64,000 nucleotides of DNA from Hyphomicrobiales bacterium (GTDB lineage Bacteria > Pseudomonadota > Alphaproteobacteria > Rhizobiales > Methyloligellaceae). The notes beneath the pieces were generated by a model, which saw only the letters and a program-made list of their open reading frames with translations, had not been told where the DNA came from and searched no databases. The position numbers and the translations under genes are program-made. The stretch spans positions 1-64,000 of the forward strand of contig JANQLP010000241.1 in the NCBI GenBank assembly GCA_028280515.1, written 5' to 3'. Positions 1,458 through 37,332 of the stretch are shown here, piece after piece (positions within the stretch are counted from its first letter, which is position 1; each line of letters opens with the position of its first letter).

Positions 1458-1830
1458 GCGTCCCTCCGGCACATATGGGCCGTACCGGCACGGGCGGGTC
1501 TGCCCGGTCGCCCGGCACCAGCCCCATTCCACGGCGCGTTATACCAGACGCGCCTTAGCGCGCCGTCAAAGCCGCGGCGCAAATACGAGTAGAATTTTCG
1601 ATCAATTTTAAGGACTTGCGCCAAACGCCCTGGCACACACCAGGGCGGCCTCTTCAAGCGCAAAAGCGGCGTGCGGACCGCCCTGCACAACGCGTCCTTT
1701 CCTAGCGCTCGGCCCTGAATCCGACTAATCTCCGAGATCAGCGCGGGCATGTGGGGGCGAAGCCGCGCGCGGGGCTTCGTGCCGCGATCCGATCTCTCAG
1801 CGCTCCACGCAGATCTGAAAAGAAGCACGC
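1458..1830. other. Intergenic region between divergent flagellin and TerB genes
   Basis: This 373-base gap separates two divergent genes and must hold both promoters. It has an AT-richer patch around 1590-1615. I see no convincing small gene, RNA or strong hairpin with a T tract. Confidence 0.4.
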
Positions 1831-2457: not shown

Positions 2458-2474
2458 GGAGCCAGGGCAAGTCT

Positions 2475-3212
2475 ATGCGCGCACTCCGGAAACTCGCATG
2501 GATTGGCTGTGTGTTGGCAAGCCTATGCGCTCCGATCGTGGTTCCGGCAGATGCGCGTGAACAGGTGGATGTGGAACTCGTGTTCCTCGCGGATGCGTCC
2601 CTTTCCATCGACGATGCGGAAATCGAGTTCCAGCGTCAGGGCTATGCGGACGCCATGCGGCATCCCGAGGTGCTGTCGGCCATCGCGCGGGGTGCCCTGG
2701 GGAAGATTGCCGTCACCTTCATCGAGTGGGCCGACCACCGCTCGCAGGACCCGGTCGTACCGTGGATGGTGGTTGACGGGGCAGCGAGCGCGGACGTTTT
2801 CGCGCGCACCCTCATGGCGCGTGAGCGCGTGACCTACGGCATGAACGCCATCGGCGCGGCACTCGCCGAAGGAACCCGCCAGATCACGCAGAACGACTAT
2901 GACGGCCTGCGCAAGATCATCGACTTTTCCGCCGACAGCGCCAACAACTGGTCCGGCATTCCGATCGAGGACGGCCGCGCACAGGCCCTCGCCGCCGGCA
3001 TCACCATCAACGGGCTGGCCGTCCTGTGCCGCGCCGACGACTGCAGCGGACGCCCTGTCGCCTACGATCTGGAAGAGGCGTTCACGAAACGCATCATCGG
3101 CGGCCCGGGCAGCTTCGTCATAACCGCCGACAGTGCGACGCGCTTCGCCGAAGCCGTCCGCCGCAAGCTCATTCTGGAACTCGCACGGGTCCCGGACCGG
3201 CCGAAAGGCTAG
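2475..3212 (+). CDS. Secreted DUF1194 (von Willebrand A-like) protein
   Basis: 245 residues. The ATG at 2475 starts a signal peptide (RKLAWIGCVLASLCAPIVVPADA). The mature part begins with VDVELVFLADASLSID, a vWA-type metal site related to DxSxS, and continues through DUF1194 signatures (ITFIEWA-like strand, VVPWMVV, DFSADSANN, ITINGLAVL, IIGGPGSFV). It should be periplasmic; the ligand is unknown. AAGGAG lies about 13 bases upstream, at the end of the TerB gene, so the pair is likely translated from one message. The stop codon falls inside the left arm of the inverted-repeat element at 3208-3489. A second DUF1194 protein lies at 12124-12876. Confidence 0.8.
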   Translation: MRALRKLAWIGCVLASLCAPIVVPADAREQVDVELVFLADASLSIDDAEIEFQRQGYADAMRHPEVLSAIARGALGKIAVTFIEWADHRSQDPVVPWMVVDGAASADVFARTLMARERVTYGMNAIGAALAEGTRQITQNDYDGLRKIIDFSADSANNWSGIPIEDGRAQALAAGITINGLAVLCRADDCSGRPVAYDLEEAFTKRIIGGPGSFVITADSATRFAEAVRRKLILELARVPDRPKG

Positions 3213-3489
3213 AGCCTATTCGGTCAAATCGGAGCCATTCTGACGGAGCGATTTTGCGACAGGATCAAGTAAAGGCTCGTGGCGCGTACCCGGGCGTACA
3301 GGCGAGGGCCTTTGCGCCGGGATTGGCGCAAAACCGCCCGTCCCGAAAAGGGTTTCCGATTGGCCGACGCCCGCCGGCGAAACGGCCTTGCCCGATACGC
3401 TAGCATCGCGCCGCGCCCGTTTCGGCGACGGATCGCACACGCCAATCGAGAAACAGAATTGACTCGGATTTGACCGAATAGGCTCTAGC
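3208..3489. repeat. 282 bp element bounded by 23 bp perfect inverted repeats
   Basis: Bases 3208-3230 and 3467-3489 are perfect reverse complements (core AGAGCCTATTCGGTCAAATC), and the similarity continues imperfectly about ten bases inward. The interior is GC-rich and has no convincing gene; it also has smaller inverted words (GATTGGCG at about 3321 and its complement near 3440). The element fills the gap between two convergent genes and its left arm contains the stop codon of the vWA gene. It could be a MITE-like element or a very long bidirectional terminator structure. No other copy of the arm occurs in the window. Confidence 0.7.
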
Positions 3490-3494
3490 TCCGC

Positions 3495-4031
3495 TCAATG
3501 CACCGCAACGCAGGTGCACTTGACCAGCCGGCACACCTGTTGCGACACGCTTCCGAACGCCACCGCCTCGATCTGGCGCAGGCCGCGGGTGCCCATGACA
3601 ATGGTGTCCACGCCCTCCGTGTCGGCCGCCGACGCGATCGCCTCCGCCGCCGTGCCATCGCCAAGGGGCAGAGCCTGCGCCGTTACGCCGCGCGCCGACG
3701 CGCGGATCGTCGCCCGGTTGAGCACGTGCTCGCCGATTGACCGCAGCAGGTCCTCACTCACCGGACGATCCGGCGCACCGCGCTCGGCCATCAGCTCTTC
3801 CGCCGAATGGGGTGTTTCCGGTTCCCCGGCAAGCGCGGCAAGCTCCTCCGCCACGTGCTCGTCGGCAACCGCCAGTTCAGGCAGACGCAGAAGCTCATCA
3901 GGCTCCTTGTCCCGCAGCAGAACGTGCAGGACCTTGATGTCGGCGCCACGCATTTCCGCCAGATCGAGGGCGAGGTCGAGCGCCTTTTCCGCGGGAACGG
4001 ATCCGTCTGTCGGCACAAGAATGGTGTTCAT
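3495..4031 (-). CDS. Universal stress protein, UspA family
   Basis: 178 residues, one Usp domain. The N-terminus MNTILVPTDGS and the C-terminal ATP-binding signature G-2x-G-9x-G-S (MGTRGLRQIEAVAFGS) are both intact, which suggests an ATP-binding type. An insertion of about 30 residues rich in Glu and Ala lies in the middle. Usp proteins are cytoplasmic stress and low-oxygen survival factors. The gene has an FNR/FixK-type box at 4093-4106, centred 68 bases upstream of the start codon, which suggests induction under low oxygen. Confidence 0.88.
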   Translation of the reverse strand: MNTILVPTDGSVPAEKALDLALDLAEMRGADIKVLHVLLRDKEPDELLRLPELAVADEHVAEELAALAGEPETPHSAEELMAERGAPDRPVSEDLLRSIGEHVLNRATIRASARGVTAQALPLGDGTAAEAIASAADTEGVDTIVMGTRGLRQIEAVAFGSVSQQVCRLVKCTCVAVH

Positions 4032-4064
4032 GTCACAATTCCCCGATTGCTCTGAAAGCCTGGC

Positions 4065-4106
4065 ATATTCCGACGATTAAAGGCCAATTTCCTTGATGTA
4101 CGTCAA
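4065..4106 (-). promoter_or_regulatory. FNR/FixK-type box and -10 for uspA
   Basis: Bases 4093-4106 read TTGATGTACGTCAA, matching TTGA-N6-TCAA. On the minus strand exactly 22 bases separate the box from GAATAT (4065-4070), which fits a class II arrangement with the box centred near -41.5. The same spacing, including a GGAA directly after the box, recurs at 18011-18052. Confidence 0.7.
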
Positions 4107-4151
4107 GCAGTTGGCGGGAACCCGGCCCTGTCGAGCGGTTCGCGTTCAGGC

Positions 4152-4553
4152 TCAGAATTCCGCCTCGAGAACACGGCCCGGACCAAAGCGGTTTTCGCCT
4201 TCGGTTCCCGGCTGAACCATCCAGTAGATCAACACGAGCAGGCCGATAACGGGGATGAACACGATCAGGACCCACCACCCCGACCGGTCGATGTCATGCA
4301 ACCGCCTGACCGTCACCGCAAGGCCCGGCAAAAGCAGTCCGAGGCCGACAATCAGGCTGAGCGGTTGCCCGGAGCCCTCACCAAACGGCGGCAGTCCCAA
4401 GGCTGGCGCGATCACATAAGCATCGATCATGTTGGTGATCAGGCTCACCACCGTTGCGAACAGCACCCACCACCAGTACTCGGGGCGCGCGGCGCGACCG
4501 GAAAAGGTCGTATATTTCGAGAAGCATGTCCTGACTGCATCCGCGAATGTCAT
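4152..4553 (-). CDS. DUF805 family inner membrane protein
   Basis: 133 residues. It has the DUF805 signature: an N-terminal MTFADAV..CF.KY, then FSGRAARPEYWWW at the first membrane helix, and RRLHDIDRSGWW between the second and third helices. Three to four membrane segments are visible. Function is unknown. I prefer the ATG at 4553 because GGGGA lies about 5 bases upstream and the family begins at this motif; an ATG two codons earlier (4559) is possible. Confidence 0.82.
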   Translation of the reverse strand: MTFADAVRTCFSKYTTFSGRAARPEYWWWVLFATVVSLITNMIDAYVIAPALGLPPFGEGSGQPLSLIVGLGLLLPGLAVTVRRLHDIDRSGWWVLIVFIPVIGLLVLIYWMVQPGTEGENRFGPGRVLEAEF

Positions 4554-4625
4554 GGCCATCCCCAAACTGCCTATGGCCGCAGGTTACCATCTGCAAGTGA
4601 GGCTGTCCCAGCCGACGTAAGGCTA

Positions 4626-5153
4626 TCACGCCTTGTCGCGCTCGATGGCGTCACGGATGAAGGCGTGCGCCTCCTCCGCCTCACCCCAGCGCACGACCTT
4701 GACCCACTTGTCCTTCTCCAGATCCTTGTAGTGCTCGAAAAAGTGGCCGATCTGGTTGATCAGGATTTCCGGCAAGTCACGGTAGGAGGAGATATCGCGA
4801 TAAAAGGGCGAAAGGTCATCGTGCGGCACGGCGAGGATCTTCTCGTCGAGCCCCTTTTCGTCCTGCATGACGAGCACACCGATGGGCCGTGAACGCAGGA
4901 TCGCCCCCGGCATGACGGGGACCTGACCGACGACAAGGATGTCGACCGGATCACCGTCCTCCGACAGGGTATGCGGCAGGAACCCGTAGTTGGCCGGGTA
5001 GTGCATCGGCGTGTGCAGGAAGCGGTCGACGACCATCGCGCCTGATTCCTTGTCGAGCTCGTACTTGATCGGCACGCCGCCGTGCGGAATTTCGATGATC
5101 GCGTTGACATCGTACGGCGCGTTCTGGCCGACGGGAATGGCTTCTATGCGCAT
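4626..5153 (-). CDS. ppa: Inorganic pyrophosphatase
   Basis: 175 residues, the normal length for a family I soluble pyrophosphatase. It hydrolyses pyrophosphate to phosphate in the cytoplasm and so drives biosynthetic reactions. The signature DGDPVDILV with its metal-binding Asp residues is intact, as are IEIPHGG..KYELDKESG and the YPANYGFLP strand. It lies 45 bases downstream of lysS on the same strand, so the two may share a transcript. Confidence 0.96.
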   Translation of the reverse strand: MRIEAIPVGQNAPYDVNAIIEIPHGGVPIKYELDKESGAMVVDRFLHTPMHYPANYGFLPHTLSEDGDPVDILVVGQVPVMPGAILRSRPIGVLVMQDEKGLDEKILAVPHDDLSPFYRDISSYRDLPEILINQIGHFFEHYKDLEKDKWVKVVRWGEAEEAHAFIRDAIERDKA

Positions 5154-5198
5154 TTGCGCCCCCCTTCGCTCACATGGCCTCGCGCAACCCTAGCACGA

Positions 5199-6809
5199 TC
5201 ACGCGGCGCTAAGGTCTTCGCCCTTGAGCACGCGTTCGATCAGGGTGCGGGTCTCCTTCACCCCGTAAAGTTCCACGAAGTTGCCGAACCGCGGTCCCTG
5301 AGACTGGCCGAGCAGAACCTCGTAAAGCGCCTTGAACCAGTCACGCAGGTTTTCGAAGTCATGCGCCTTGCCGACTTCGTAGACCACATTCTGGATGTCC
5401 TCGCCGCTCGCCCCCTCCGGCACGCGGGCAAGCCGGGCGTCGAGATCGGACAGGGCCGCCCGCTCCACGTCGTTTGGCGTGCGATACTTCTTCGCGGGCC
5501 TGACGAAATCATGGAAATACCTGATGGCGTACCCCACCAGATGGTCCAGCAAGGGATGCTCCTCCGGCGTCGCGCCCGGCGCATAACGCTGAATGAAGCC
5601 CCACAGCACCTGCGGCTCCTCGGAGTTCGACGCGCTGACGAGATTAAGCAACAGATTGAAGCTGATCGGCAGTTCGGCCCGCGGCGGCTTTCCGGAATGG
5701 ATGTGCCACACGGGGTTTGCCAACTGTTTGTCCTGATCCTGGTCGGGATAGCTTGAGAGATGCGCCAGATACTCGTCGACCGCCTTGGGAATCACGTCGA
5801 AATACAGGCGCTTCGCCTTGCGCGGGCTCTGGAACATGTACAGCGCCAGGCTTTCCGGCGAGGCATAGGTGAGCCACTCGTCGATCGTCAGGCCGTTGCC
5901 CTTGGACTTGGAGATTTTCTGCGCATTCTCATCGAGAAACAGCTCATAAGAGAACCCTTCGGGCGGAACGGTTCCGAGGATGCGCGCGATCGCACCCGAC
6001 AAGCGGACGCTGTCTATCAGGTCCTTCCCGGCCATTTCATAGTCCACGCCAAGCGCGACCCAGCGCATGGCCCAGTCCGCCTTCCACTGGCACTTGACCG
6101 CACCGCCGGTGACCGGCGTGGTCATTTCCTCAGACGTTTCCGGATCGACATAGGTCACGGTACCCGCCTTCGGGTCACGCGCGATCATGGGCACCTGCAG
6201 GACGCGCCCTGTGCGCGGACACAGCGGAAGAAACGGCGAGTAGGTCTTGCGCCGTTCCTCGCCGAGCGTCGGCAGGATCACGTTCATCACCTTGTCGTAG
6301 TTCTCGAGAATCTTCAGCAGGGTCTCGTCGAACAGCCCGGACCGGTAGCACTCCGTCGCCGAGAAGAATTCGTAGTCGAACCCGAACGTGTCGAGAAACG
6401 CCTTCAGGCGGTTGTTGTTGTGGGCGCCGAAGCTGGTGTCGGTCTGAAACGGATCGGGCACCGAGGTGAGCGGCTTGTCGAGGTGCGGCGCGATCATGTG
6501 CCCGTTCGGGATGTTGTCAGGCACCTTGCGCAGGCCGTCCATGTCGTCGGAGAAACAGATGAGCCGCGTCGGCCATTCGTCCCCGGTCAGCACGCGAAAC
6601 GCGTATCGGACCATGGTCGTGCGCGCGACCTCGCCGAACGTGCCGATATGCGGAAGGCCGGAAGGACCGTACCCCGTCTCGAACATCACGGTTTCCGGGC
6701 GGTTCGGCAGCTTTTCGAGGCGCGCAAGCAGTTTGCGGGCCTCGTCGAACGGCCATGCCTTGCTGTCCCTGGCAAGGTCTGCGGACTTCTGGTTGAAAAC
6801 GTCACCCAT
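5199..6809 (-). CDS. lysS: Lysyl-tRNA synthetase, class I
   Basis: 536 residues. It charges tRNA-Lys. This is the class I (archaeal-type) enzyme that replaces class II LysRS in many alphaproteobacteria: the HIGH-type motif appears as [15 protein letters not shown] near residue 45-60 and the KMSKS-type motif as KISKSKGNG. The ATG at 6809 (MGDVFNQ) matches the start of homologues. A TTG 13 codons upstream would extend the frame but has no support. Confidence 0.95.
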
Positions 6810-6985
6810 GATGGGGGCGAACCTATGCGTGTGGCCGGTATGCGTCAATCTTCAGACGGGCCATCGCCGGTTGACGCATGGGGCAATTACGGCACATACA
6901 AACCTTGACCAATCCGACGCAATCTCTACATCTGCTCGCTCAAGGAAACATATCTCGCAAAAGCCGCACTCCGGGAGCCTCGCTC

Positions 6986-7396
6986 ATGCCGAACCTGAAC
7001 CACCACGAAGCGCTCATTTACGTCATGGTCGCAATGGCGGCGGTCGACCGTCATATGACCGATTCCGAATTCACCCGTATCGGACAGATGGTGTCGCATC
7101 TTCCGATCTTCTCCGACTACGAAGCCGACAACCTGATGGAAACCGCGAAAAACTGCGGCGAGATGCTGTCGAGCTCGAACGGCCTCGATGAGACCCTTGC
7201 GCGGATCGGCACATCGGTTCCGGAAAAGCTCCGTGAAACCGCCTACGCCCTTGCCGTCGAAGTGGCCGCGGCCGATCTCAAGGTCACGCAGGAAGAGTTG
7301 CGGCTGCTCGCGCTGATCGGCGAAACACTGAAGCTCGACAAGTTGATCATGGCTGGCATCGAACGCGGCGCCCGCGCCCGGCACGCGACCCTGTAA
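6986..7396 (+). CDS. Cytoplasmic TerB-like protein
   Basis: 136 residues, all of it a TerB-like helical domain: ALIYVMVAMAAVDRHMTDSEF at the first acidic site and EVAAADLKVTQEELRLLALIG at the second. There is no signal peptide or membrane segment. GGGAG lies about 10 bases before the ATG at 6986. It resembles the C-terminal domain of the membrane TerB protein at 1831-2457. The function is not known. The next gene starts 63 bases downstream. Confidence 0.8.
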   Translation: MPNLNHHEALIYVMVAMAAVDRHMTDSEFTRIGQMVSHLPIFSDYEADNLMETAKNCGEMLSSSNGLDETLARIGTSVPEKLRETAYALAVEVAAADLKVTQEELRLLALIGETLKLDKLIMAGIERGARARHATL

Positions 7397-7459
7397 GGCC
7401 AAGCCGACGGCAAAAAAACGACAATAAAAACAACAAGGCCGGACCGAGGAAAAAACACA

Positions 7460-8332
7460 ATGTCGCGGAAAGTTGTCATCACCTGCGCGCTTACGGGCTC
7501 GCAGGACACCTGTGCAAAGAACCCTGCCATACCCGCATCGCCTGAGGAGATCGCAACCTCGGCGATCGACGCCGCGAATGCGGGGGCGTCGGTCGCACAC
7601 ATCCACGTGCGGGACCCGGAAACCAAGCTTGCCAGCATGGAGGAGCACCTGTATGCGGAGACGGTTGACCGCATCAAGGCGTCCGGCAGCAACATCATCA
7701 TCAATCTGACCACCGGGCCGGGCGCCCGGTTCGTTCCCGGCAAGGACGACCCGGCCGTTCCTGATCCCTCCACCACGCTGAAGAGCCCGGCGGAGCGCGT
7801 GAAACACATTCTGTCGATCAAACCGCCGGTCTGCACACTGGACGTGGCGTCGTTCAATTTCGGCGAGCAGGTGTTCGTCAACACGCCCGAGCATCTGCGC
7901 GAGATGGGCGACATGATCACCGCCGCCGGCGTCAAGCCCGAGCTGGAGGCCTTCGACACCGGCCATATCGTTCTGGCAAACCGCCTGATTGCGGAGGGTC
8001 ATCTCAAAGAGCCGCCGCTGTTCCAGCTTTGCCTCGGCATTTCCTACGCCGCCCCGGCAACGCCTGAATCGCTCCTGCATATGCGCGACATGCTGCCCCC
8101 GAACGCGGTCTGGTCGGCGTTCGGCATTTCGCAGCACCAGTTCCCCATCGTCGCCGCGACGGTCATCTCCGGCGGACATGTGCGCGTTGGCCTGGAGGAC
8201 AATCTGTACATGGAGCGGGGGGTTCTGGCCCCGTCCAACGCGGCATTGGTGGAGCGGGCGGCACGGATCATCCGGGAAATCGGCGCCGAGGTCGCCACGC
8301 CGGACGAGGCACGCGAGATCTTCGGCGTCTGA
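7460..8332 (+). CDS. Beta-keto acid cleavage enzyme (BKACE, DUF849)
   Basis: 290 residues. The family condenses a beta-keto acid with acetyl-CoA to give acetoacetate and a new CoA ester; substrates include 3-keto-5-aminohexanoate and dehydrocarnitine. The N-terminal strand ITCALTGS, the zinc-binding AHIHVRDP (His47, His49), the NLTTGPGAR loop and the GGHVRVGLEDN motif are all present. The substrate cannot be fixed from sequence. No other genes of lysine fermentation or carnitine use lie beside it. The convergent AraC-family gene starts 97 bases beyond its stop. Confidence 0.9.
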   Translation: MSRKVVITCALTGSQDTCAKNPAIPASPEEIATSAIDAANAGASVAHIHVRDPETKLASMEEHLYAETVDRIKASGSNIIINLTTGPGARFVPGKDDPAVPDPSTTLKSPAERVKHILSIKPPVCTLDVASFNFGEQVFVNTPEHLREMGDMITAAGVKPELEAFDTGHIVLANRLIAEGHLKEPPLFQLCLGISYAAPATPESLLHMRDMLPPNAVWSAFGISQHQFPIVAATVISGGHVRVGLEDNLYMERGVLAPSNAALVERAARIIREIGAEVATPDEAREIFGV

Positions 8333-8429
8333 CCGGCCACTGACGGCCCTGGCACGACCGGCAAATCCACTCGGCAGCGCCGTTTCTTTTGCGACCCTTT
8401 CAGAATGCGGATCCTTCGGCGGGTGCCGC

Positions 8430-9248
8430 TCACCGGGCAAGTTTCGCGGGCGTGACGCCGAAGGCCTTGCGAAACGCGGCTGTAAACGCACTGGCGCTCT
8501 CATAGCCGTTGGCATGCGCGACCCGCCCGATCGGCTCGCCGCGCACGATCGCCTCCATGGCGTTGTGGAAGCGCACGCGCTGGCGCCATTGCGCAAAAGT
8601 CAGCCCGACTTCGTTGGCGAAAAGCCGCGACAGGGTCCGCGCGCTGGCACCGGCTACCTCGGCCCATTGGTCGAGCGTTTCGCTTCGCGAGGGATCGTCC
8701 AGCAATTCCTTGCAAAGCCGCTTGAGACGGTCATCACGCGGCATCGGAATGACCAGCTGAAGACGCCGCGCACGTGCCAGTTCATCGAGTATGAGCGACG
8801 CCAGCCAGCCGCCGCGCCCGTGCTCGTCATAGAGCAGCGGCTCGTCGAGAAGCGCCAGAATGAGTGCACGCAGCAGCGGAGAGATGTCCAGGACCACCGG
8901 CGTTTCGGGAAGTTCGAAATGTGAGCCGGGACGGATGTAGAGGGTGCGCATCTCCACATTGCCCCTGAGGGCCACGCCATGTTCGAGACCGGCGGGGACG
9001 TAGAGTGCACGATGCGGCGGCACGATCCAGGCTTCCCGCGCCGTCGCGACGCGCATCACACCTTCAATAGCATATAGAACCTGGTCGCGCTCATGGGCAT
9101 GCGGCGGGATCGTCTCACCGGCGGAAAAGCTCTTGGCCATGGCGGCGATGGCGCGCGGCACAGCCTGGTAATCATCGGGGTCCGTGCTGCGGACATACAG
9201 GCCATCTGGCAGGTCGTCCGGCAGGTCGTCTGGTCCACTACTCGACAT
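8430..9248 (-). CDS. AraC family transcription regulator with cupin sensor
   Basis: 272 residues. Residues about 25-120 form a cupin-like sensor (PPHAHERDQVLYAIEGVMRV..PPHRALYVPAGLEHGV), and the last 100 are an AraC HTH pair (LDQWAEVAGASARTLSRLFANEVG..F..WRQRVRFHNAMEAI..GYESASAFTAAFRKAFGVTPAKL). A short tandem repeat gives DDLPDDLPDG at the N-terminus. It is divergent from the MFS gene at 9645 across a 396-base gap and is the likely regulator of that gene. ATG at 9248 is used. Confidence 0.9.
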   Translation of the reverse strand: MSSSGPDDLPDDLPDGLYVRSTDPDDYQAVPRAIAAMAKSFSAGETIPPHAHERDQVLYAIEGVMRVATAREAWIVPPHRALYVPAGLEHGVALRGNVEMRTLYIRPGSHFELPETPVVLDISPLLRALILALLDEPLLYDEHGRGGWLASLILDELARARRLQLVIPMPRDDRLKRLCKELLDDPSRSETLDQWAEVAGASARTLSRLFANEVGLTFAQWRQRVRFHNAMEAIVRGEPIGRVAHANGYESASAFTAAFRKAFGVTPAKLAR

Positions 9249-9644
9249 CAATCAAAATAGTATCGAAAAACTGACAAGTGATCAAACCGTGCCCGGCAGA
9301 AATCCGAGGTTTCGTCCCGTCGTTCCGGTTCGGGCCGCAGTTCGGCGCGTGCACATCTGGAGGCAACCGACGGGTTCGGTGCCACGGATCACGCCAGCGC
9401 TCGCGACCGTCACCTGCTCAACACCATAGGAGCACAATGGCGCGATGTCGTGACGGGACGGCCGCACAACAGTGCACGTTCTCCACAGCTTTCAGGGCAG
9501 AAATCCGCGGGCGCAGATCAGTCCCTTGCGGACAGGCAAACCCGGGTGTCTGAAAATCGACAGCTTTTGGCATGACATCGTTAGTTCGCCAGACCTAAAA
9601 TTCCCTTCGAAATCAACAGAATCAAAGTCTGAAGGACCCCGGGC
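9249..9644. promoter_or_regulatory. Divergent control region, araC-type gene / MFS gene
   Basis: No gene is visible in this 396-base gap. A 12-base direct repeat GGCAGAAATCCG occurs at 9295-9306 and 9496-9507, about 200 bases apart. Direct repeats are the usual binding-site form for AraC family proteins, so these are candidate sites for the neighbouring regulator, but that is an inference. Confidence 0.35.
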
Positions 9645-10850
9645 ATGTCGCAGCAGCGCATCCACTTCGCGTTTTTGAATATCGGGCATTTTCTCGATCA
9701 CTTCTTCATGCTCGTGTTCGCGACGGTGGCGGCCCTGACCCTGACGCGGGAGTGGGGGTTGTCCTACGCGCAACTCATCCCTTACGCGACGCCCGGATTC
9801 ATCGCCTTTGGCGTTTGCGCCATCCCCGCCGGCTGGCTCGCCGACAAATGGAGCCGCCGCGGCATGATGGCCGTGTTCTTCATCGGCATCGGTGTGTGTT
9901 CGATCCTGACCGCCCTGGCCGAGACGCCGATGCAGATCGGCCTGGCGCTATTTGCCATGGGCGTGTTCGCGGCCATTTATCACCCGGTCGGAATTCCGCT
10001 CGTTATCGAAGACCGTGACAGGACCGGTCTGCCGATCGCCATCAATGGCGTTTACGGCAATCTGGGTGTTGCCAGCGCCGCGCTGATCACCGGGTTTATG
10101 ATCGATTATACCGGATGGCGTTCCGCGTTCGTCTGGCCCGGAGTGGTCTCGATCCTTGTGGGTATCGCCTATATCTGGCTTATCGGCATTGCGCCGGAAC
10201 GAAACCGGGCGGCCCCGAAGAAGAAGTCGGGCGGGTCGGTCGCATCGAGCTATCAGGGCATGCCGCTGGTACGGATCTTCGCCATTATCCTCTTCACCAC
10301 GGCGCTTGGCGGCATCGTCTTCCAGTCCACGACATTCGCCCTGCCCAAGGTTTTCGACGAGCGGCTCGGCGAGCTGGCGTTATCGGCGACCCTTGTCGGC
10401 TGGTATGCGTTCCTGGTCTTCTCGCTCGCCGCATTGGCCCAACTTGTGGTCGGATACCTGCTTGACCGGCATTCGGCGCGTTCGGTCTTCCTGGGCGTCG
10501 CCGCGTTGCAGGCCATTTTCTTCGCCTTGATGCCGGGGCTGCACAACTGGGCGGCCTTGATCGTCTCCGTCGCCTTTATGCTGGCCGCGTTCGGGCAAAT
10601 CCCGATCAACGACGTGCTCGTCGGCCGGATTGCCGCCAGCGAATGGCGCAGCCGTGTCTTCGCTTTCCGCTATATCGTCACCTTTTCCGCCCTGTCGGCA
10701 TCCATCCCCATGATCGCCTGGATTCACGCCAACTGGGGCTTTGACCGTCTGTTCATGCTGCTTGCAGTCTTGGCGACATTCATTCTTCTCGCGGTGCTGT
10801 TTCTTCCACGTGCCATTCCGGCACGAACGCAGGCCGCGGCTGCCGAATAG
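9645..10850 (+). CDS. MFS transporter
   Basis: 401 residues with about 12 hydrophobic segments. The loop after helix 2 has the MFS motif A form (GWLADKWSRRGMM), and the second half repeats it more weakly (GYLLDRHSARSV). The opening FLNIGHFLDHFFMLVF resembles the fosmidomycin-resistance-like branch of MFS, whose members export or take up varied small molecules. It is divergent from an AraC regulator, a typical inducible transporter arrangement. The substrate is unknown. Confidence 0.87.
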   Translation: MSQQRIHFAFLNIGHFLDHFFMLVFATVAALTLTREWGLSYAQLIPYATPGFIAFGVCAIPAGWLADKWSRRGMMAVFFIGIGVCSILTALAETPMQIGLALFAMGVFAAIYHPVGIPLVIEDRDRTGLPIAINGVYGNLGVASAALITGFMIDYTGWRSAFVWPGVVSILVGIAYIWLIGIAPERNRAAPKKKSGGSVASSYQGMPLVRIFAIILFTTALGGIVFQSTTFALPKVFDERLGELALSATLVGWYAFLVFSLAALAQLVVGYLLDRHSARSVFLGVAALQAIFFALMPGLHNWAALIVSVAFMLAAFGQIPINDVLVGRIAASEWRSRVFAFRYIVTFSALSASIPMIAWIHANWGFDRLFMLLAVLATFILLAVLFLPRAIPARTQAAAAE

Positions 10851-10986
10851 ACGGCTCCGCAACTTACCAAAACGTAATGAAAATGCCGGGTCCCGGCGCA
10901 ACGGATTGACGTGCACTGGCCCGTTTCACGTCCACATGGGAAACGGGTTGTCCGGTTCTCGCGGCAACTTTCAAGGAGAATATTTT

Positions 10987-11856
10987 ATGCGTAAACGCAA
11001 AACACTCGCATTGATGGCGGGCGCGGCCGCCGTCGCGGGCGTCGCCGGCCTCTCAACCCTCGCAGTCGCGGACTCTCGCGGCTCCTATGGCGGCGGCTAC
11101 CACGGCGCCGGAAAGCACGGCAAAGCAAAGCACGCCGGCTGGCACAAGCGTGGCAAGCACGGCGGCAAGGCCATGTACCGCACCATCGCCCGCTTCGACG
11201 CCAATGACGACGGCAAGCTGACCCAGGAAGAGGTCGACACGACCCGCAAGGACCTGCACGCCAAGCACGACGCCGACAAGGACGGAAAGCTCAGCCTTGA
11301 AGAGTTCGAGACGCTTTGGGTGGATTTCACCAACCGGCGCATGGTGCGCGCCTTCCAGCGCATCGACACGGACGGTGACGCCGTGATCACGCTCGAAGAG
11401 TATCAGGCGCCGATGAAGAACATCGTCGCGCGGCGGGACCGTAATGACGACAAGGTTCTCGATGCCGAGGACCGTCGCGGTAAGAAGGGTCGTGGTAAGG
11501 GTTCGGGCTGGTTGATGAAGCGCTACGACGCCAACAACGACGGCAAGCTGACCCAGGAGGAGATCGACACGACGCGCAAGGACATCTTCGCCAAGCACGA
11601 CGCGAACAAGGACGGCAAGCTGGACCTGGCTGAGTTCAAGGCCCGTTGGGTCGAGTTCACCGATCGGCGCAAGGTCCGCGGCTTCCAGCGCATCGATACC
11701 GACGGCGATGCCGGCATCACGGTTGAGGAATACCTGGAACCGTTCTCATCGGTGGTGGCGCGCATGGATCGCAACGAAGACGGCGTGCTCGACATGAAAG
11801 ACAGAAAGCGCGGCCGGCACAAAGGTTCTGGTGCTGATAACAGTGATCGGCGTTAG
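10987..11856 (+). CDS. Secreted EF-hand protein with eight calcium loops
   Basis: 289 residues. A signal peptide (about 1-29) precedes a Gly/His/Lys-rich linker (about 30-62). Eight EF-hand loops of the DxNxDG type start near residues 71, 95, 127, 151, 181, 205, 237 and 261. The second four sit exactly 110 residues after the first four, and flanking text repeats too (KLTQEE.DTTRKD, RIDTDGDA), so the gene arose by duplication of a four-loop unit. It is expected to bind calcium in the periplasm or outside. AAGGAG lies 8 bases before the ATG. A strong terminator follows at 11935. Confidence 0.88.
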   Translation: MRKRKTLALMAGAAAVAGVAGLSTLAVADSRGSYGGGYHGAGKHGKAKHAGWHKRGKHGGKAMYRTIARFDANDDGKLTQEEVDTTRKDLHAKHDADKDGKLSLEEFETLWVDFTNRRMVRAFQRIDTDGDAVITLEEYQAPMKNIVARRDRNDDKVLDAEDRRGKKGRGKGSGWLMKRYDANNDGKLTQEEIDTTRKDIFAKHDANKDGKLDLAEFKARWVEFTDRRKVRGFQRIDTDGDAGITVEEYLEPFSSVVARMDRNEDGVLDMKDRKRGRHKGSGADNSDRR

Positions 11857-11934
11857 AACTCCGGCGGCACGGGCCCCCGTGGTGGCATGGGACCACGTGG
11901 CGGCTGACCGGCTGCTCCCCAGCAGCTGACCTGA

Positions 11935-11971
11935 CGGCGGTGCCCAGCCTCCGGGCACCGCCGAACTTTTT
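11935..11971 (+). terminator. Rho-independent terminator after EF-hand gene
   Basis: An 11 bp perfect stem (CGGCGGTGCCC at 11935-11945 with its complement at 11953-11963) with a 7-base loop, followed by AACTTTTTC. It ends transcription of the EF-hand gene. Confidence 0.88.
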
Positions 11972-11988
11972 CACAGAACGCCTCTTCT

Positions 11989-12125
11989 AGAGCAAAATCC
12001 GATTAGGTTGACTCACCCTGTTTCAACCTAATCGGATAACTTTGCTCTATATCTTAAAGTGTTTGAGCATCTTTATGCGTTCAGATATCGCGACGAAACG
12101 CATCAATCTGAACGCATGATGCTCT
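11989..12125. repeat. Rhizobial-type palindromic intergenic repeat, two hairpins
   Basis: The first hairpin spans 11989-12048: AGAGCAAA..CCGATTAGGTTGA pairs with its complement ending TTTGCTCT. The second spans about 12065-12124: GAGCAT..ATGCGTTCAGAT (12075-12086) pairs with ATCTGAACGCAT (12106-12117) and ATGCTC. Palindromes beginning AGAGCA and ending TGCTCT are common in intergenic DNA of Hyphomicrobiales; their role is not established. They sit between a plus-strand terminator and the stop codon of the minus-strand DUF1194 gene. Confidence 0.75.
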
Positions 12126-12876
12126 ATGGCCGGACCGTCAGCATTTGCGGCTCGGGCCCGGCAGCGATATTGACGGAGATCTCCCGCAGCAGCTTGTTGC
12201 GCATGCCCACCACAATGTCCGTGTAGTCGGCAACGGTCATGACAAACGCCCCGGCACCGCCGATGACGTGTTCGAAATAATAATGATGCAGGAACGGCTC
12301 ATCGGTCAGGATGGTCAGGCCGTTCACCGTTATCCCCTCGTTCGTGACCATGTCCCGCACCAGTTCAGGCGGAATGCCCGAGTTGTTCGCACCGTCGCCC
12401 GACACGTCGATCGACTTGCGCCGCCCTTCATAGACGTTTCGCCGGATCAACCGTTCGCTGAATCTGAGAACCCCGCCGATCCCGGTGCTGTCGCCGAAAC
12501 TGCGTTCCTCGCTCGCCGCAATCGCATCTGAAAAGGCGTGCGCCGTCACCTGATCCTTGAGCACGGACCAGGGCACCACCTGACGTTGTTCGTTGACCGA
12601 ACTCCAGTGCACGACCGTCACGGCGATGCCGCCCGACGGGCTGGTGCCGATAATCGCGGCGATAACGGCAGGATCCCGGAACGCCTTCACCAATCCTTCG
12701 ATCTGTAACTTGTATTCCCTGCTGTCGACACTTCCGGACGTGTCAATTGCCAGGACGAGTTCCAGATCGACAGGGATCGCACCTTGCGCGTAGGCACGCT
12801 GATCCGAACCGAACACTCCGCTCCAGAGCGCGGCCAGATAGAACCAGACCCCGATATGCCGAAACATGAGCTGCAT
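12124..12876 (-). CDS. Secreted DUF1194 (vWA-like) protein
   Basis: 250 residues. A hydrophobic signal (HIGVWFYLAALWSGVF..AYAQG) precedes VDLELVLAIDTSGSVD, here with a full DxSxS metal site, followed by VTVVHWSS, VVPWSVL, SIDVSGDGANN, GITVNGLTIL and HVIGGAGAFVM. It is a paralogue of the protein at 2475-3212, which has a less canonical metal motif. I use the ATG at 12876, just after GGAGGAAG; a second ATG three codons on (12867) is almost as good. It is not next to a TerB gene, unlike the first copy. Confidence 0.82.
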   Translation of the reverse strand: MQLMFRHIGVWFYLAALWSGVFGSDQRAYAQGAIPVDLELVLAIDTSGSVDSREYKLQIEGLVKAFRDPAVIAAIIGTSPSGGIAVTVVHWSSVNEQRQVVPWSVLKDQVTAHAFSDAIAASEERSFGDSTGIGGVLRFSERLIRRNVYEGRRKSIDVSGDGANNSGIPPELVRDMVTNEGITVNGLTILTDEPFLHHYYFEHVIGGAGAFVMTVADYTDIVVGMRNKLLREISVNIAAGPEPQMLTVRP

Positions 12877-13007
12877 CTTCCTCCAACGAAAGCTTATCGG
12901 TTCGGAGCCCGTCCGGCAAAGTGGTTGGGTTGAACTCGCCGTGAGCCCTATGACTCGCATGCAGATCTCAGCGCCGTTTGGCTTTGCCGCGATCCGGCCC
13001 AAGCACC

Positions 13008-13652
13008 TCATCGGGCAGTTTTCAGATGCTTCGCCCACGCGGCAATGGCGTCGCACGCCGCATTCCGGTTCTGCTCTGCCGAAAGTCCCGTTTTCTTTCG
13101 CGGCACGAGGTTGTGATCGCCGTCTTCGGCCCAGTGGACCGTAACCGATTGCGGCAAGCTGTAGCCGGGTACGTCTGTTGACCCGCCAAAAGGATCGCGG
13201 GTGCCCTGCGCGATCAGCACAGGGATCGTCAGATTCATCAGATGTGCGGTTCGCAGTTTCTCCGGGCGTCCGGGCGGGTGAAACGGGTATCCGAGGCACA
13301 GCAGCCCGGCGGCGCGTTCTGCGTCGAACTCATCCTGTGCAATCAGGCTCGCAACGCGTCCGCCGAGCGACTTTCCGCCGATGATCAATCGGCCCGTGGA
13401 GCCGAGCGCACCGATGGCTTGCATATATTCCTCGATCAACCGCTCCGCACGCGGCGGCGGCCGTTTGCTCCCTCCATGCCGACGCCCCGCCATATAGGCG
13501 AACTCGAACCTGGCAACCGCGAAACCCCGCGCAGCCAGGCCTTGCGCAAACCCGGTCATGAACGGTGTGTCCATGGCCGCCCCGGCGCCATGCGCCAGAA
13601 GCACATGCGTGGACGCATCCGGTGCACCATCTCTCAGGAAGTTGACCGCCAT
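13008..13652 (-). CDS. Small alpha/beta hydrolase (KANL3/TEX30-like)
   Basis: 214 residues. It has a single hydrolase domain: HVLLAHGAGAAMDTPFM near the start (the HGxG oxyanion strand), a nucleophile elbow GGKSLGGRVAS with the predicted catalytic Ser, an Asp after the sixth strand (AQGTRDPFG) and a His in DGDHNLVPRK. The family is widespread and its substrates are unknown. The ATG at 13652 lies inside a 19-base palindrome. It is divergent from the sterol desaturase family gene, with 52 bases between them. Confidence 0.82.
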   Translation of the reverse strand: MAVNFLRDGAPDASTHVLLAHGAGAAMDTPFMTGFAQGLAARGFAVARFEFAYMAGRRHGGSKRPPPRAERLIEEYMQAIGALGSTGRLIIGGKSLGGRVASLIAQDEFDAERAAGLLCLGYPFHPPGRPEKLRTAHLMNLTIPVLIAQGTRDPFGGSTDVPGYSLPQSVTVHWAEDGDHNLVPRKKTGLSAEQNRNAACDAIAAWAKHLKTAR

Positions 13653-13669
13653 GAGATAATATATCTCAT
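13651..13669. promoter_or_regulatory. 19 bp palindrome over the hydrolase start codon
   Basis: Bases 13651-13669 read ATGAGATAATATATCTCAT, a perfect 8-3-8 inverted repeat. It covers the initiation codon of the minus-strand hydrolase and occupies a third of the 52-base gap to the divergent desaturase gene. Its AT-rich centre could also serve as a -10 region. It looks like an operator or a translation-masking hairpin. Confidence 0.5.
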
Positions 13670-13704
13670 CCAAGGGACGGCGCTGCCACGTTATATAGGC
13701 GCTC

Positions 13705-14571
13705 ATGGACACACTGGCTTCATATGGCATCAGCGAGACCGCACTCCGGCTCGGCGCATTCCTGGGCATCCTGTTGATCATGGCCCTGCTGGAGCTGGTG
13801 ATCCCCAGACGCATGCCCCGTGAGACAAAATGGCGGCGCTGGATCACCAACCTGACCATCGCGGGCATAGATGCGGCAGTCGTGCGGCTGATGGCGCTGC
13901 TAGCCGTTCCGGTGGCCGCCGTGGCTGCCGCCGTATGGGCGCAGGCCAACGGTTGGGGCTTGCTGAACTGGCTGAACGGCCCGGAATGGATTGCCCTGCC
14001 GGTCGCCATCGTCGTGCTCGACCTGGCGATTTACGCGCAGCACGTGGCCTCTCACAAGTTCCCGATCCTCTGGCGATTGCACAAGGTCCACCATACGGAC
14101 GTCGAGTTCGATGTTACGACGGCGGTGCGTTTCCATCCGATCGAGATCGCGCTGTCGATGTTGTGGAAGATCGCGGTCGTCCTGGCGCTCGGCGCCTCCC
14201 CATGGGCCGTGATCCTGTTCGAGGTCATCCTCAACGGATGCGCGATGTTCAATCACGCCAATATCACGTTGCCCGGCTGGCTCGACCGCATCGTCCGGCT
14301 GGTTCTGGTCACACCGGACATGCATCGCGTGCATCATTCGGTTTACCGCAGCGAACACGACACAAACTACGGTTTCAGCCTGTCGATCTGGGACAAGCTG
14401 TTCGGCACCTACAAGGCACAGCCGCACGATGGTCACGTGGACATGGTCATCGGCCAGAAGAGTCACCTTAATGACAATCCGACCAGGCTGGGCTGGAGCC
14501 TTCGCCTGCCGTTCCGTCGTCCGAGCGGCACCAACTACGACATCGATCAGAAGAAGCTGAGCGGGAAGTAA
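13705..14571 (+). CDS. Sterol desaturase / fatty acid hydroxylase family protein
   Basis: 288 residues, integral membrane protein with about four to five helices. The di-iron His boxes of the superfamily are all visible: QHVASH (about residues 112-117), HKVHH (about 128-132) and HRVHHS followed by EHDTNYG near 210-225. Members use oxygen to hydroxylate or desaturate membrane lipids, sterols or carotenoids; the substrate here is unknown. The last 25 bases overlap the end of the convergent gene. Confidence 0.9.
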   Translation: MDTLASYGISETALRLGAFLGILLIMALLELVIPRRMPRETKWRRWITNLTIAGIDAAVVRLMALLAVPVAAVAAAVWAQANGWGLLNWLNGPEWIALPVAIVVLDLAIYAQHVASHKFPILWRLHKVHHTDVEFDVTTAVRFHPIEIALSMLWKIAVVLALGASPWAVILFEVILNGCAMFNHANITLPGWLDRIVRLVLVTPDMHRVHHSVYRSEHDTNYGFSLSIWDKLFGTYKAQPHDGHVDMVIGQKSHLNDNPTRLGWSLRLPFRRPSGTNYDIDQKKLSGK

Positions 14572-33326: not shown

Positions 33327-34307
33327 TTAGTTGGATGCTCTCGGCGTCTGCTCAAAGTCCGCAGGGTCGAAATCATACGTAGCGTTGCAGAACTGGCAGG
33401 TTACGCGAATACGGCCGTCTTCAGCCATGTCGTCACGCTCGGCGGCGCTGAAACTGTTCAACATGGACTTCACGCGTTCCGGCGAGCAACCGCACTGGAA
33501 AGCGAGCGATCGTGGCTCGAACACGCGCACATGCTCATCGTGGAACAGACGGTAGATCAGCCGTTCCGGGGCCAGCAACGGGTCAACAAGCTCCTGATCC
33601 TGAACCGTCTCCGCAAGGATGACCGCCCGGTTCCAGCCATCTTCATCCGAGACCTTCTCCGGCACGCCATGGCCGCCCTCGCGCGTCAGATGCTGAACCA
33701 TGAGGCCCCCGGCGCGCCAGCTCCAGTTATCCTGTTTGTCTCCCCCACCCGACGCATCGGCGCTGTAATGGCGCGCAACCGCGACCCGGATGAACGTCGG
33801 CAACTGCTCGGATTGGCGGAAATAGGCGTCGGCCGCCTCGTTCAGATTGCCGCCTTCGAGTGCCACGACCCCCTGGTAATTGTCCATGCCGGGACCGCGT
33901 TCGATGGTCATGGCCAGATGCCCCTTGCCGAGCAGATCGCCGGGCGCAATTTCACCCTTTGCCGCCAGTGCGGCCACGGCCTCGGCGTCGAAGCCCGCGT
34001 AACCGCGCAAGGTCCCGGACGATCCGTAGTCGACGACGAGCAGATTGACCGGGCCGTCGGTCTTGGTCTGGAACGTGAACTTGCCTTCGAATTTGAGGGA
34101 TGCGCCAAGCAAGGCGGTCAGAGCCACCGCTTCGCCGAGAAGCTTGCACACGGGCTCCGGATAATCATGCCCGCGCAGGATCTCGTCGACCGCTAGGCCG
34201 AGACGTGCAAGGCGGCCACTCACACCGGCCCGGTCCGCCTGGAACGGCAGAACCAGGTCATCCGCGGCGACCGAATCCGCAGGCGGGCGTGTCTGCGCTG
34301 CTTCCAT
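33327..34307 (-). CDS. hslO: Hsp33 redox-regulated chaperone
   Basis: 326 residues. A cytoplasmic holdase switched on by oxidation. The C-terminal redox zinc centre is complete: CGC (Cys272, Cys274), 29 residues, then CQFC (Cys304, Cys307). The N-terminal domain has VDEILRGHDYPEPVCKLLGEAVALTALL and the central GGLMVQHL. It starts 6 bases after the argF stop, as the last gene of the argD-argF-hslO run that is common in Hyphomicrobiales. Confidence 0.96.
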   Translation of the reverse strand: MEAAQTRPPADSVAADDLVLPFQADRAGVSGRLARLGLAVDEILRGHDYPEPVCKLLGEAVALTALLGASLKFEGKFTFQTKTDGPVNLLVVDYGSSGTLRGYAGFDAEAVAALAAKGEIAPGDLLGKGHLAMTIERGPGMDNYQGVVALEGGNLNEAADAYFRQSEQLPTFIRVAVARHYSADASGGGDKQDNWSWRAGGLMVQHLTREGGHGVPEKVSDEDGWNRAVILAETVQDQELVDPLLAPERLIYRLFHDEHVRVFEPRSLAFQCGCSPERVKSMLNSFSAAERDDMAEDGRIRVTCQFCNATYDFDPADFEQTPRASN

Positions 34308-34313
34308 GTTCGA

Positions 34314-35228
34314 TCACATCACTCCGAAGCACCAGGCGAGGATCGCCTTTTGTGCATGCAGCCGGTTCTCCGCTTCGTCGAATACCACGGATTGCGGCCC
34401 GTCGATCACCTCCGCGGTCACTTCATCACCCCTGTGCGCCGGCAGGCAATGCATGAAGATCGCATCCTTGTCCGCGTGTGCCATCAGATTCCGATCCACC
34501 TGAAACGGTGTAAGCAACTCCTTGCGCTTCACCGCGTCCTTGTCGCCCATCGAGACCCACACATCCGTCACCACCGCGTCCGCGTCCTCCGCCGCCTCCG
34601 CAGGCGACTGCGTGACATCCACCTTGCCGCCTTCCTTCTGCACCCAGTCGAGAAGTCCCGGATCAGGTGCGAGTTCGCGCGGGCAGGCAATTCGCAAACC
34701 GAACCTGAACCGGACCGCGGCCTGCATCCACGAGTTGGCGACATTGTTGGCATCTCCGATCCACGCCACCGTCCGCCCGGCGATGGACCCCCGCGCTTCC
34801 TCAAACGTCATGACGTCCGCCATGATCTGGCAGGGATGGGACCAGTCGGTCAGCCCGTTGATCACCGGCACGGTTGCAAACTCGGCGAGCTCCGTCACTT
34901 TCGAGTGCGCATCGGTCCGCACCATGATCCCGTCCACGTAACGCGACAGGACCCGCGCCGTATCGGCGACGGTTTCGCCACGTCCGAGCTGGGTCTCGCC
35001 GCTGTTGAGGACCAGTGTCTGGCCGCCGAGCTGACGCATCGCCACGTCGAACGACACGCGCGTGCGCGTGGACGGCTTGTCGAACATGAGCGCGAGAACC
35101 GACGTCGGCGGCAAGTCCACCGGCTTTTCACCGGTGCGCCGCTCCTTGAGCGCGCGCGCATTGTCGATGAGCCGCTGCAACGTCTCCGTGTCGAGCGCGT
35201 CGATATCCAGAAAGTGCCGGACCGTCAT
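34314..35228 (-). CDS. argF: Ornithine carbamoyltransferase
   Basis: 304 residues. It makes citrulline from ornithine and carbamoyl phosphate in arginine synthesis. The carbamoyl phosphate site is [16 protein letters not shown], the ornithine loop is DVWVSMGDK and the [11 protein letters not shown] motif is intact. I use the ATG at 35228 (MTVRHFLDI), which leaves 4 bases after the argD stop. Confidence 0.96.
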
Positions 35229-35232
35229 ATAT

Positions 35233-36426
35233 TCAGGCTCCGGCCTGCTCGGCTGCCGTCGCAGACACTTTTTCACACGCCGCCTCAAGCCGCTCGCACG
35301 CCATATCGATTTGCTCCGGTTCGACCGTCAACGGCGGCAGCATGCGGACGACATTGTCACCCGCAGGTACGGTCAGCAATTGCTGCTCGAACAAGGCATC
35401 GATGAGTTTCTGGCTGGGCACCTTGCACTTGATGCCGAGCATGAGGCCCTCGCCTCGGATCGTCTCGATTACGTCCGGATGGCCGTCGCATATGCCTGCA
35501 AGCTTCTGCTTGAGCCGCGTGCCCATGTCGCGGACATGATCCAGAAACCCGGGCGCAAGCACCACGTCGAGCACGGCATTGCCGACGGCCATGGCCAGCG
35601 GATTGCCGCCGAACGTGGAGCCGTGCGTTCCGGCGGTCAGTCCAACCGCGGCCTCTTTGGTCGCGAGACACGCGCCCATGGGAAACCCCCCGCCGATTCC
35701 CTTCGCGACCGCCATGATATCCGGCGTGGTTCCCGACCATTCGTGTGCGAACAGCTTGCCGGTTCGCCCGATGCCCGTCTGGACCTCGTCGAAAATGATC
35801 AGCAGTCCGTTTTCGTCGGCCAGTTCCCGCAAATCACGGAAGAACTTCCACGGCACGGTCAGGATGCCGCCTTCGCCGAGCAGCGGCTCTATGGCAATGG
35901 CCGCAGTTTCGTCGGTTATGGCGGCCCGTACGGCATCGAGATCGTGGAGCGGCACCTGATCGAAGCCTTCCACCTGCGGCCCGAACCCGTCCAGATGCTT
36001 GGCCTGACCGCCCGCAGCGATGGTCGCCAGCGTGCGGCCGTGAAAGGCGCCCTCGAATGTGATGATCCGGTAGCGTTTGTCGTTGCCGTGGGCGGCATGG
36101 TATTTCCGCGCCATCTTGATCGCGCATTCCATCGCCTCGGCGCCGGAGTTGGCGAAAAACGCCTGATCCGCAAACGTCAACGCCGCGAGGCGGTCCGCAA
36201 GCCGTTCCTGACCCGGAATATGATACAGGTTCGACGTGTGCCACAGCTTGTGCGCCTGTTCGGACAGGACTTCGACCAGCGCGGGATGGCAATGTCCCAG
36301 AGACACGACCGCAACGCCGGCGCCGAAATCAAGGAATTTCTCACCATCGGCGGTCTCGAGGAACACGCCCTCGCCCTTTACAAAGGCCAGATCGGCACGC
36401 GCGTAGGTGGGGATGACAGCGCTCAT
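35233..36426 (-). CDS. argD: Acetylornithine/succinyldiaminopimelate aminotransferase
   Basis: 397 residues, class III PLP aminotransferase. It converts N-acetylglutamate semialdehyde to N-acetylornithine, and often also serves lysine synthesis. Landmarks are [55 protein letters not shown], the PLP-Lys region [15 protein letters not shown] and [16 protein letters not shown]. First gene of argD-argF-hslO. A promoter and a hairpin with a T tract lie immediately upstream, so the operon may be attenuated. Confidence 0.94.
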
Positions 36427-36453
36427 GACAGTTCACTTTGCGTTTGCGGAACC

Positions 36454-36479
36454 AAAAAAGCCGCCACAGCGGTGGCGGC
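36454..36479 (-). terminator. Hairpin with T tract at the 5' end of the argD transcript
   Basis: On the minus strand an 8 bp perfect stem GCCGCCAC / GTGGCGGC (36460-36467 with 36472-36479) with a 4-base loop is followed by six T residues (36454-36459), 28 bases before the argD ATG. It has the form of an intrinsic terminator. No gene upstream on this strand could need it, so it probably regulates argD or protects the 5' end of the mRNA. Confidence 0.75.
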
Positions 36480-36493
36480 ATCGCTACATGGCG

Positions 36494-36521
36494 ATACTAA
36501 GCCAACGCCGCGCCCTGTCAA
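36494..36521 (-). promoter_or_regulatory. Promoter of argD-argF-hslO
   Basis: On the minus strand a perfect -35 TTGACA (36516-36521) and a -10 TAGTAT (36494-36499) are 16 bases apart. Transcription would begin near 36487, only about 8 bases before the hairpin at 36454-36479. Confidence 0.68.
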
Positions 36522-36822
36522 TTCGGCCACACCTGCCGGACTTTATGCAGAATTCGTCCACCAGCCCCTTCTTTTCTGGGGAAAGTCGTGGCAGAATCCA
36601 AACAATCGGTGGAAAAGCCGGGCCCAGAACGGGCGGGCGCTTGCCGGACTTTTTCCCGATGGTGTACCTTTACGTTTCGTCGGCCACACGATCTCAGGGA
36701 TCGATCACCGGTCGGCGGTGACCTCACGTAAGAGTTGGCGTTGAAGCCGGGCCGCCCTTCTGCGGCAGCGGAAGGAGTACGAGTCCGATAACAGGCAACC
36801 ACGAAGAAGGAGGCATGGCCCC
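36522..36822. other. Intergenic region upstream of gcrA
   Basis: I see no gene here. It contains two GANTC sites (GAATC at 36594, GAGTC at 36781), the target of the CcrM methylase that GcrA responds to, and an inverted pair TCACCG / CGGTGA around 36705-36722. Two GANTC sites in 300 bases are not more than chance would give. Confidence 0.35.
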
Positions 36823-37332
36823 ATGGCGTGGACTGATGATCGCGTCGAACTACTAAAAAAACTTTGGGCAGAGGGACTTAGCGCCAGCCAGATCGCCAAC
36901 CGGCTTGGTGGTGTCACGCGCAATGCGGTCATCGGCAAGGTTCATCGCCTTGGGCTGTCCGGCCGCACGACCACATCGCGGGCGAAGGCGCCCCGCACGC
37001 GGCGCAGAGCAAGCCATGCGCAGAACAGACCCGCGCGGCCGCAATTACGAAGCCACGGCAACCTTGCCCTGAAGCCCGCCTATGATGTCGATGCAGAGGA
37101 AGAAGTGGAACTCGTGCCGGCAACGATCCAGGAACTCGTGATACCGGTCGAAGAACGCGCCAGCATCCTTACGCTCGACGAAACAAAATGCAGATGGCCG
37201 ATCGGAGACCCGGGCGACGAGGACTTCCATTTCTGCGGCCGGAATTGTGTGGTCGGCACTCCTTACTGCGAGTTCCATTCGCGCATTGCCTATCAACCCG
37301 CGCAATCGCGCCGCAAGACGGCGCGCGGCTGA
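36823..37332 (+). CDS. gcrA: GcrA cell cycle regulator
   Basis: 169 residues. GcrA binds sigma-70 RNA polymerase and promoters with methylated GANTC sites and drives S-phase genes in alphaproteobacteria. The N-terminal helix-turn-helix MAWTDDRVELLKKLWAEGLSASQIANRLGGVTRNAVIGKVHRLGL-type segment is unmistakable. A basic linker follows, then the C-terminal sigma-binding part with CRWPIGDPGDEDFHFCG and YCEFHSRIAYQP. GAAGGAGG stands 5-9 bases before the ATG. Confidence 0.97.
   Translation: MAWTDDRVELLKKLWAEGLSASQIANRLGGVTRNAVIGKVHRLGLSGRTTTSRAKAPRTRRRASHAQNRPARPQLRSHGNLALKPAYDVDAEEEVELVPATIQELVIPVEERASILTLDETKCRWPIGDPGDEDFHFCGRNCVVGTPYCEFHSRIAYQPAQSRRKTARG

Follow-up and report, generated by a model that had tools for sequence, protein, structure and literature searches.

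Why should a structure with the appearance of an intrinsic terminator stand between a promoter and the first gene that it serves? The question is posed by argD in a Hyphomicrobiales contig, of which we analysed a stretch of 64,000 nucleotides (the window). Here argD, for acetylornithine transaminase (35233–36426, minus strand; NF002325, E = 1.5e-189), is followed on the same strand by argF, for ornithine carbamoyltransferase (34314–35288), and hslO, for Hsp33 (33327–34307), both identified by family search; judged from spacing, hslO probably forms one operon with argD and argF. On the other side of argD, and outside the element discussed below, lies the divergent gene gcrA (36823–37332, plus strand), whose match to the NCBIfam model sig70cofacGcrA scores 179 bits, below the model cut-off of 280, yet spans residues 1–165 of 169. 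The initial annotation had stated that no upstream gene on the argD strand needs a terminator, and the orientation of gcrA bears this out.

Layout of the argD leader in the window

The argD promoter (36521–36494, minus strand) is near-consensus, with a 16-nt spacer between the −35 element TTGACA (36516–36521) and the −10 element TAGTAT (36494–36499). It was the one site returned by a promoter scan of 2.2 kb (shuffle mean, 0.4). Taken from the position of the −10 element, transcription is predicted to start at 36487 (±2). Eight nucleotides downstream of this point begins the stem-loop GCCGCCAC-CGCT-GTGGCGGC (36460–36479, minus strand), recovered by both hairpin scan and folding and consisting of a GC-rich 8-bp stem and a 4-nt loop. 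Directly 3′ of the hairpin is the run TTTTTT (36459–36454), part of the T-rich tail TTTTTTGGTT (36450–36459) read from the sequence. The scans and the fold thereby confirm an earlier description of a consensus promoter, an 8-bp GC hairpin about 8 bases past the start and six T residues ahead of argD.

A GC-rich stem with a T-rich tract directly after it is the sequence pattern of an intrinsic terminator, and both are present at argD, with a predicted termination point about 33–34 nt into the transcript. The argD ATG (36426, minus strand) is separated from the T run by 27 nt, which cannot hold a promoter, so argD mRNA in the window must cross the terminator. The scan listed eight terminator-like sites (shuffle mean, 2.0), among which the argD hairpin has the most pairs, and the argD element was the sole promoter-plus-terminator combination that our own scanner found on either strand of the window. 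Taken as RNA, the 36 nt from the predicted start onwards have a folding energy of −16.5 kcal/mol (z = −2.4), which 3 of 200 shuffles equalled or bettered, and longer pieces of the leader fold no better than expected (z = −0.9 and −0.4). On a d'Aubenton-Carafa-type terminator score, d, in our own version, the element reaches 31. From its sequence and that of its relatives, we consider it probable, with considerable room for doubt, that this is a promoter-proximal intrinsic terminator acting as an attenuator of argD–argF–hslO and specific to argD.

Conservation in the genus and across Hyphomicrobiales

When the leader is aligned with those of its relatives, promoter, hairpin and T tract are retained in all eight genus genomes. 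Column identity is 1.0 for the −35 element (identical in 8/8) and 0.94 for the −10 element; the hairpin arms stand at 0.91 and 0.97 and the T tract at 0.96, with lower values in the flanks (0.59 between −10 and stem, 0.64 in the remaining leader). Within the genus, conservation of the hairpin arms and T tract is thus about on a par with that of the −35 and −10 boxes, whereas the flanking sequence varies. The intergenic region between gcrA and argD (36530–36810) also appears strongly conserved, far past the argD promoter, in seven of the eight genus genomes (L087 differs), with blocks such as TCTTACGTGAGGTCAC and GGATTCTG. In S. meliloti, argD is likewise divergent from gcrA, and CtrA sites there are discussed in PMC3616915.

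The wider comparison covered 177 argD upstream regions: 80 named loci (the top-ranked 80 of 585 relatives, a few of which may not belong to the order), 89 other order genomes (drawn from 115 with a match, the remaining 26 being left out) and the 8 genus genomes, with two identical pairs among them (L017/L124 and L067/L144). The scan rule called for a stem of at least 6 bp with at least 5 GC pairs and a T-rich tail, and for a promoter with at least 8 of 12 matches ending no more than 25 nt before. Hairpin and T-rich tail were present in 160 of the 177 regions, and the promoter as well in 146, compared with 19 and 1 of 177 antisense regions and 57 and 3 of 885 dinucleotide shuffles; 133 of the 177 regions passed a stricter promoter rule (9 of 12 matches, 2–20 nt before the stem). 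The corresponding counts were 72 and 69 for the 80 named loci (best 80 of 585 relatives), 88 and 77 for the order sample together with the genus (97 genomes), and 39 and 36 for the 45 families that these represent. The element is therefore conserved across most of the order Hyphomicrobiales, beyond chance. By eye, several of the 17 regions that fail the scan (L021, L112, L113, L114 and L153) have a long-loop or shorter-stem form; no version of the hairpin was seen by eye in others, such as L195, L198 and L200, which counts against attenuation.

The distance from −10 element to stem is held across leaders (median, 11.5 nt; s.d., 3.6; range, 0–19), whereas that from stem to protein-match start runs from 45 to 218 nt (s.d., 44) and loop size from 4 to 16 nt. 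This pattern ties the hairpin to the start of transcription, and the varied loop and coding-start spacing indicate that selection is neither on translation nor on a fixed DNA dyad. In Phyllobacterium and relatives (L018, L027, L029, L036, L041, L064 and L074) the loop is unusually long, at 15–16 nt, and near-constant (AATGGCATTG).

An intrinsic-terminator-like structure within a divergent intergenic region might equally be an ordinary terminator of upstream transcription, or an insulator between the divergent genes. We hold this to be highly improbable, because the element follows the promoter at a constrained distance and because a gcrA relative is upstream and divergent in 72 of the 80 named loci (best 80 of 585 relatives), 79 of which have an argF relative downstream on the argD strand. 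In Methylobacterium gcrA was not found beside argD; in the single locus whose open reading frames were inspected by eye (L013), the gene upstream also looks divergent.

The GCCGCC/GGCGGC arms are kept in sequence, beyond what pairing demands, as would suit an operator bound by an argD repressor. Loops of 4 to 16 nt, however, are ill-suited to a dimeric operator of fixed spacing, the T tract is one-sided, arms that have shifted or been replaced still pair (for example, GCCACC/GGTGGC and GCTGCC/GGCAGC) and no ArgR was found in 121 order genomes, leaving an operator only a slender chance. Among 43 sequences selected for having the hairpin, paired changes amounted to 5 double-change cells, spread over 3 of 6 pairs (mean of 0.5 cells in shuffles), which is modest evidence, since the stem varies little in sequence.

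The tails of the 146 cases are 73% T over 10 nt, compared with 23% T and 26% A in the 5′ flank, and such one-sided T-richness, on the 3′ side only, is as expected of a directional terminator. The score d exceeds 0 in 112 of 160 leaders (median, 10), as against 44 of 327 terminator-like sites (median, −39) in 800 kb of reference sequence, a sample rather than whole genomes that took 400 kb from Mesorhizobium amorphae (G128) and as much from order genome G057. Several features count against attenuation: d is at or below 0 in the other 48 of 160 leaders, the tails are frequently interrupted (T5 in 91 and T6 in 48 of 143) and the predicted RNA at the eighth tail base is short (median, 33 nt; range, 22–48). 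The predicted start moreover falls inside the stem in 12 of 146 cases, for which either the start rule or the hairpin must be wrong.

Specificity to argD and argD leaders outside the order

Promoter and hairpin are rarely found together away from argD. The 80 named loci (best 80 of 585 relatives) supply 481 kb of sequence surrounding argD, in which the combination, here with a promoter of 9 of 12 matches lying 2–20 nt upstream of the stem, was seen 67 times at argD itself and at two other sites. One of the two (L045) lies some 260 nt ahead of the argD match and is probably the argD element itself. Only 2 of the 327 terminator-like sites in the 800-kb sample lie behind a promoter-like sequence, and both are unconvincing.

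This scarcity bears on the main rival, a 5′-protecting hairpin, which the initial annotation had offered as an alternative. Its stem would block 5′-end-dependent decay (RppH, RNase E) with scant termination, and its U-rich stretch would be a landing site for ribosomes or Hfq. Stem-loops of the ompA type, which stabilize an mRNA from its extreme 5′ end, resemble the argD element, whose hairpin would lie at the predicted 5′ end of the mRNA; the stem begins 0–12 nt past that point in 134 of 146 cases. Rhizobium loci carry GNRA loops on CCGCC/GGCGG stems, favouring stability, and the T tract is interrupted in many leaders. Unlike those stem-loops, the argD element adds a conserved T tract and often several unpaired 5′ nucleotides, which should weaken protection of the 5′ end by the stem. 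About 4 or more such nucleotides precede the stem in 88 of 146 cases, the T tract is conserved in the genus as well as the stem, and the near-absence of such hairpins behind other promoter-like sites in 800 kb is odd for a general stabilizer. Protection thus fits less well than attenuation and we regard it as unlikely, though a competitor to be taken seriously.

For a covariance model, R1, we took 43 of the 94 non-redundant leaders, chosen by eye with odd stems excluded, so that its members, being hand-picked, match by construction. Scoring 150 of the 1,755–13,792 first-look candidates per genome, R1 placed the argD leader at the top in 9 of 10 genomes, with E values from 9e-8 to 0.24. The last of these values belongs to Aestuariivirga (G133), where the runner-up had E = 0.37; in Rhodomicrobium (G134) argD came second (E = 0.82), and the best non-argD match across the 10 genomes had E = 0.054. 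As candidates for copies of the element elsewhere, 13 other R1 matches were judged by eye to be ordinary terminators or chance, save one attenuator-like leader.

An amino-acid operon with a terminator in its leader also recalls the classical ribosome-mediated attenuator, here with an arginine leader peptide, of which Mesorhizobium amorphae has an apparent example before a DAHP-synthase-like gene. The median distance of 11.5 nt between −10 end and stem allows no leader peptide at argD unless the true start is well upstream; an ATG stands just upstream of the stem in only 2 of 8 genus members, and this start codon is not conserved. We give this explanation next to no credence. The M. amorphae leader itself (L213, 1417–1577) has a 23-residue open reading frame (MINLTAKYWYFSS...) at 1417, a terminator hairpin at 1513–1530 and the DAHP-synthase-like gene, recognized by eye, at 1577, and looks like a classical attenuator of aromatic amino-acid synthesis.

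Outside the order, hairpin and T-rich tail were present in 29 of 88 class-level regions, 16 of them with the promoter, compared with 4 and 0 of 89 antisense regions; the set comprised 89 places from 98 genomes with a match, L247 (same order) being left out of the 88 and 8 genomes excluded. In many of these non-order alphaproteobacteria, the argD region reads TTGAC-17-GATACT with a conserved C-GCTTTTC after it (for example, L259, L264, L269, L271 and L276). A CTTT run just past the −10 element occurs there in 31 of 52 regions with a recognizable promoter, compared with 10 of 92 within the 177 order-level regions, 2 of 46 promoter-like sites in two order genomes and 5 of 51 in two genomes of the non-order group. 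Going by these sequences, C-GCTTTTC may be a T run at the start site that takes part in regulation.

Probable attenuation and possible arginine control without ArgR

The initial annotation had set the argD leader apart from the usual control by ArgR, and this view is supported: none of 121 order genomes matches the ArgR DNA-binding family at E = 0.001, in a search whose control was positive in 9 of 14 genomes, 8 of them over the cut-off. Repression through ArgR and ARG boxes acts on the same pathway as the argD element would, but no ArgR match was obtained in 121 of 121 order genomes. A passage of a regulon comparison places ArgR with those regulators that are conserved among gammaproteobacteria but that the other classes lack (PMC5343134).

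The trp, pyr, T-box and riboswitch leaders are attenuators that work through intrinsic terminators, and they likewise have a GC hairpin and T tract between the promoter and the first biosynthetic gene. Unlike them, the argD leader has no leader peptide, aptamer or antiterminator that we could find, and RNA polymerase would meet its terminator almost at once (median predicted RNA, 33 nt). Rfam 15 covariance models returned only two chance-level matches in 36000–37000 (E = 5.8 and 7.8), hence no credible match to a riboswitch or other known RNA family. No alternative fold emerged in the window leader: at 36, 64 and 88 nt, minimum-energy and centroid folds alike retain the hairpin. Leader attenuation does occur in the same order, in the S. 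meliloti DUF1127 mRNA, where according to an excerpt of PMC12218461 it depends on a translated uORF, for which the argD leader has no room.

A minimal attenuator for an arginine operon, as first proposed from the window, remains the best fit, now with conservation through most of the order behind it. RNA polymerase would begin at about 36487, the hairpin would fold while the T tract is being transcribed and some polymerases would release an RNA of about 34 nt, argD being reached by read-through only. Termination would then be partial, and some factor or condition (elongation speed, NTP level or an RNA-binding antiterminator) would shift the read-through. Since neither an antiterminator fold nor a sensor was found, fixed damping is also conceivable beside regulation. 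A sensor-free attenuator that reads UTP supply, with low UTP slowing polymerase in the T tract and causing termination, strikes us as very unlikely. If it were true, low UTP would mean less ArgD and ArgF, sparing carbamoyl phosphate for pyrimidines, and the early T run (C-GCTTTTC) at the argD start in other alphaproteobacteria would serve the same purpose.

Our search of open-access papers, supplements excluded, found no description of this argD leader element. The main text of PMC3616915 names argD once and does not speak of attenuation, and its tables might hold a mapped S. meliloti argD start; argD is absent from the main text of PMC12403871, and the excerpted text of PMC7268258 treats the ArgD and ArgF enzymes and does not cover the leader. 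S. meliloti sRNAs, given as 50–348 nt in the portion of PMC2873474 consulted, include 379 mRNA leader transcripts, and the predicted argD RNA, at about 33 nt, would be too short for that range.

For arginine control without ArgR in alphaproteobacteria, an order-wide, argD-specific terminator-like element offers a small and mutable target, and it would show the minimum transcript length usable for intrinsic termination in nature. A hairpin and T residues at the start site may be the way in which Hyphomicrobiales throttle arginine synthesis without ArgR.
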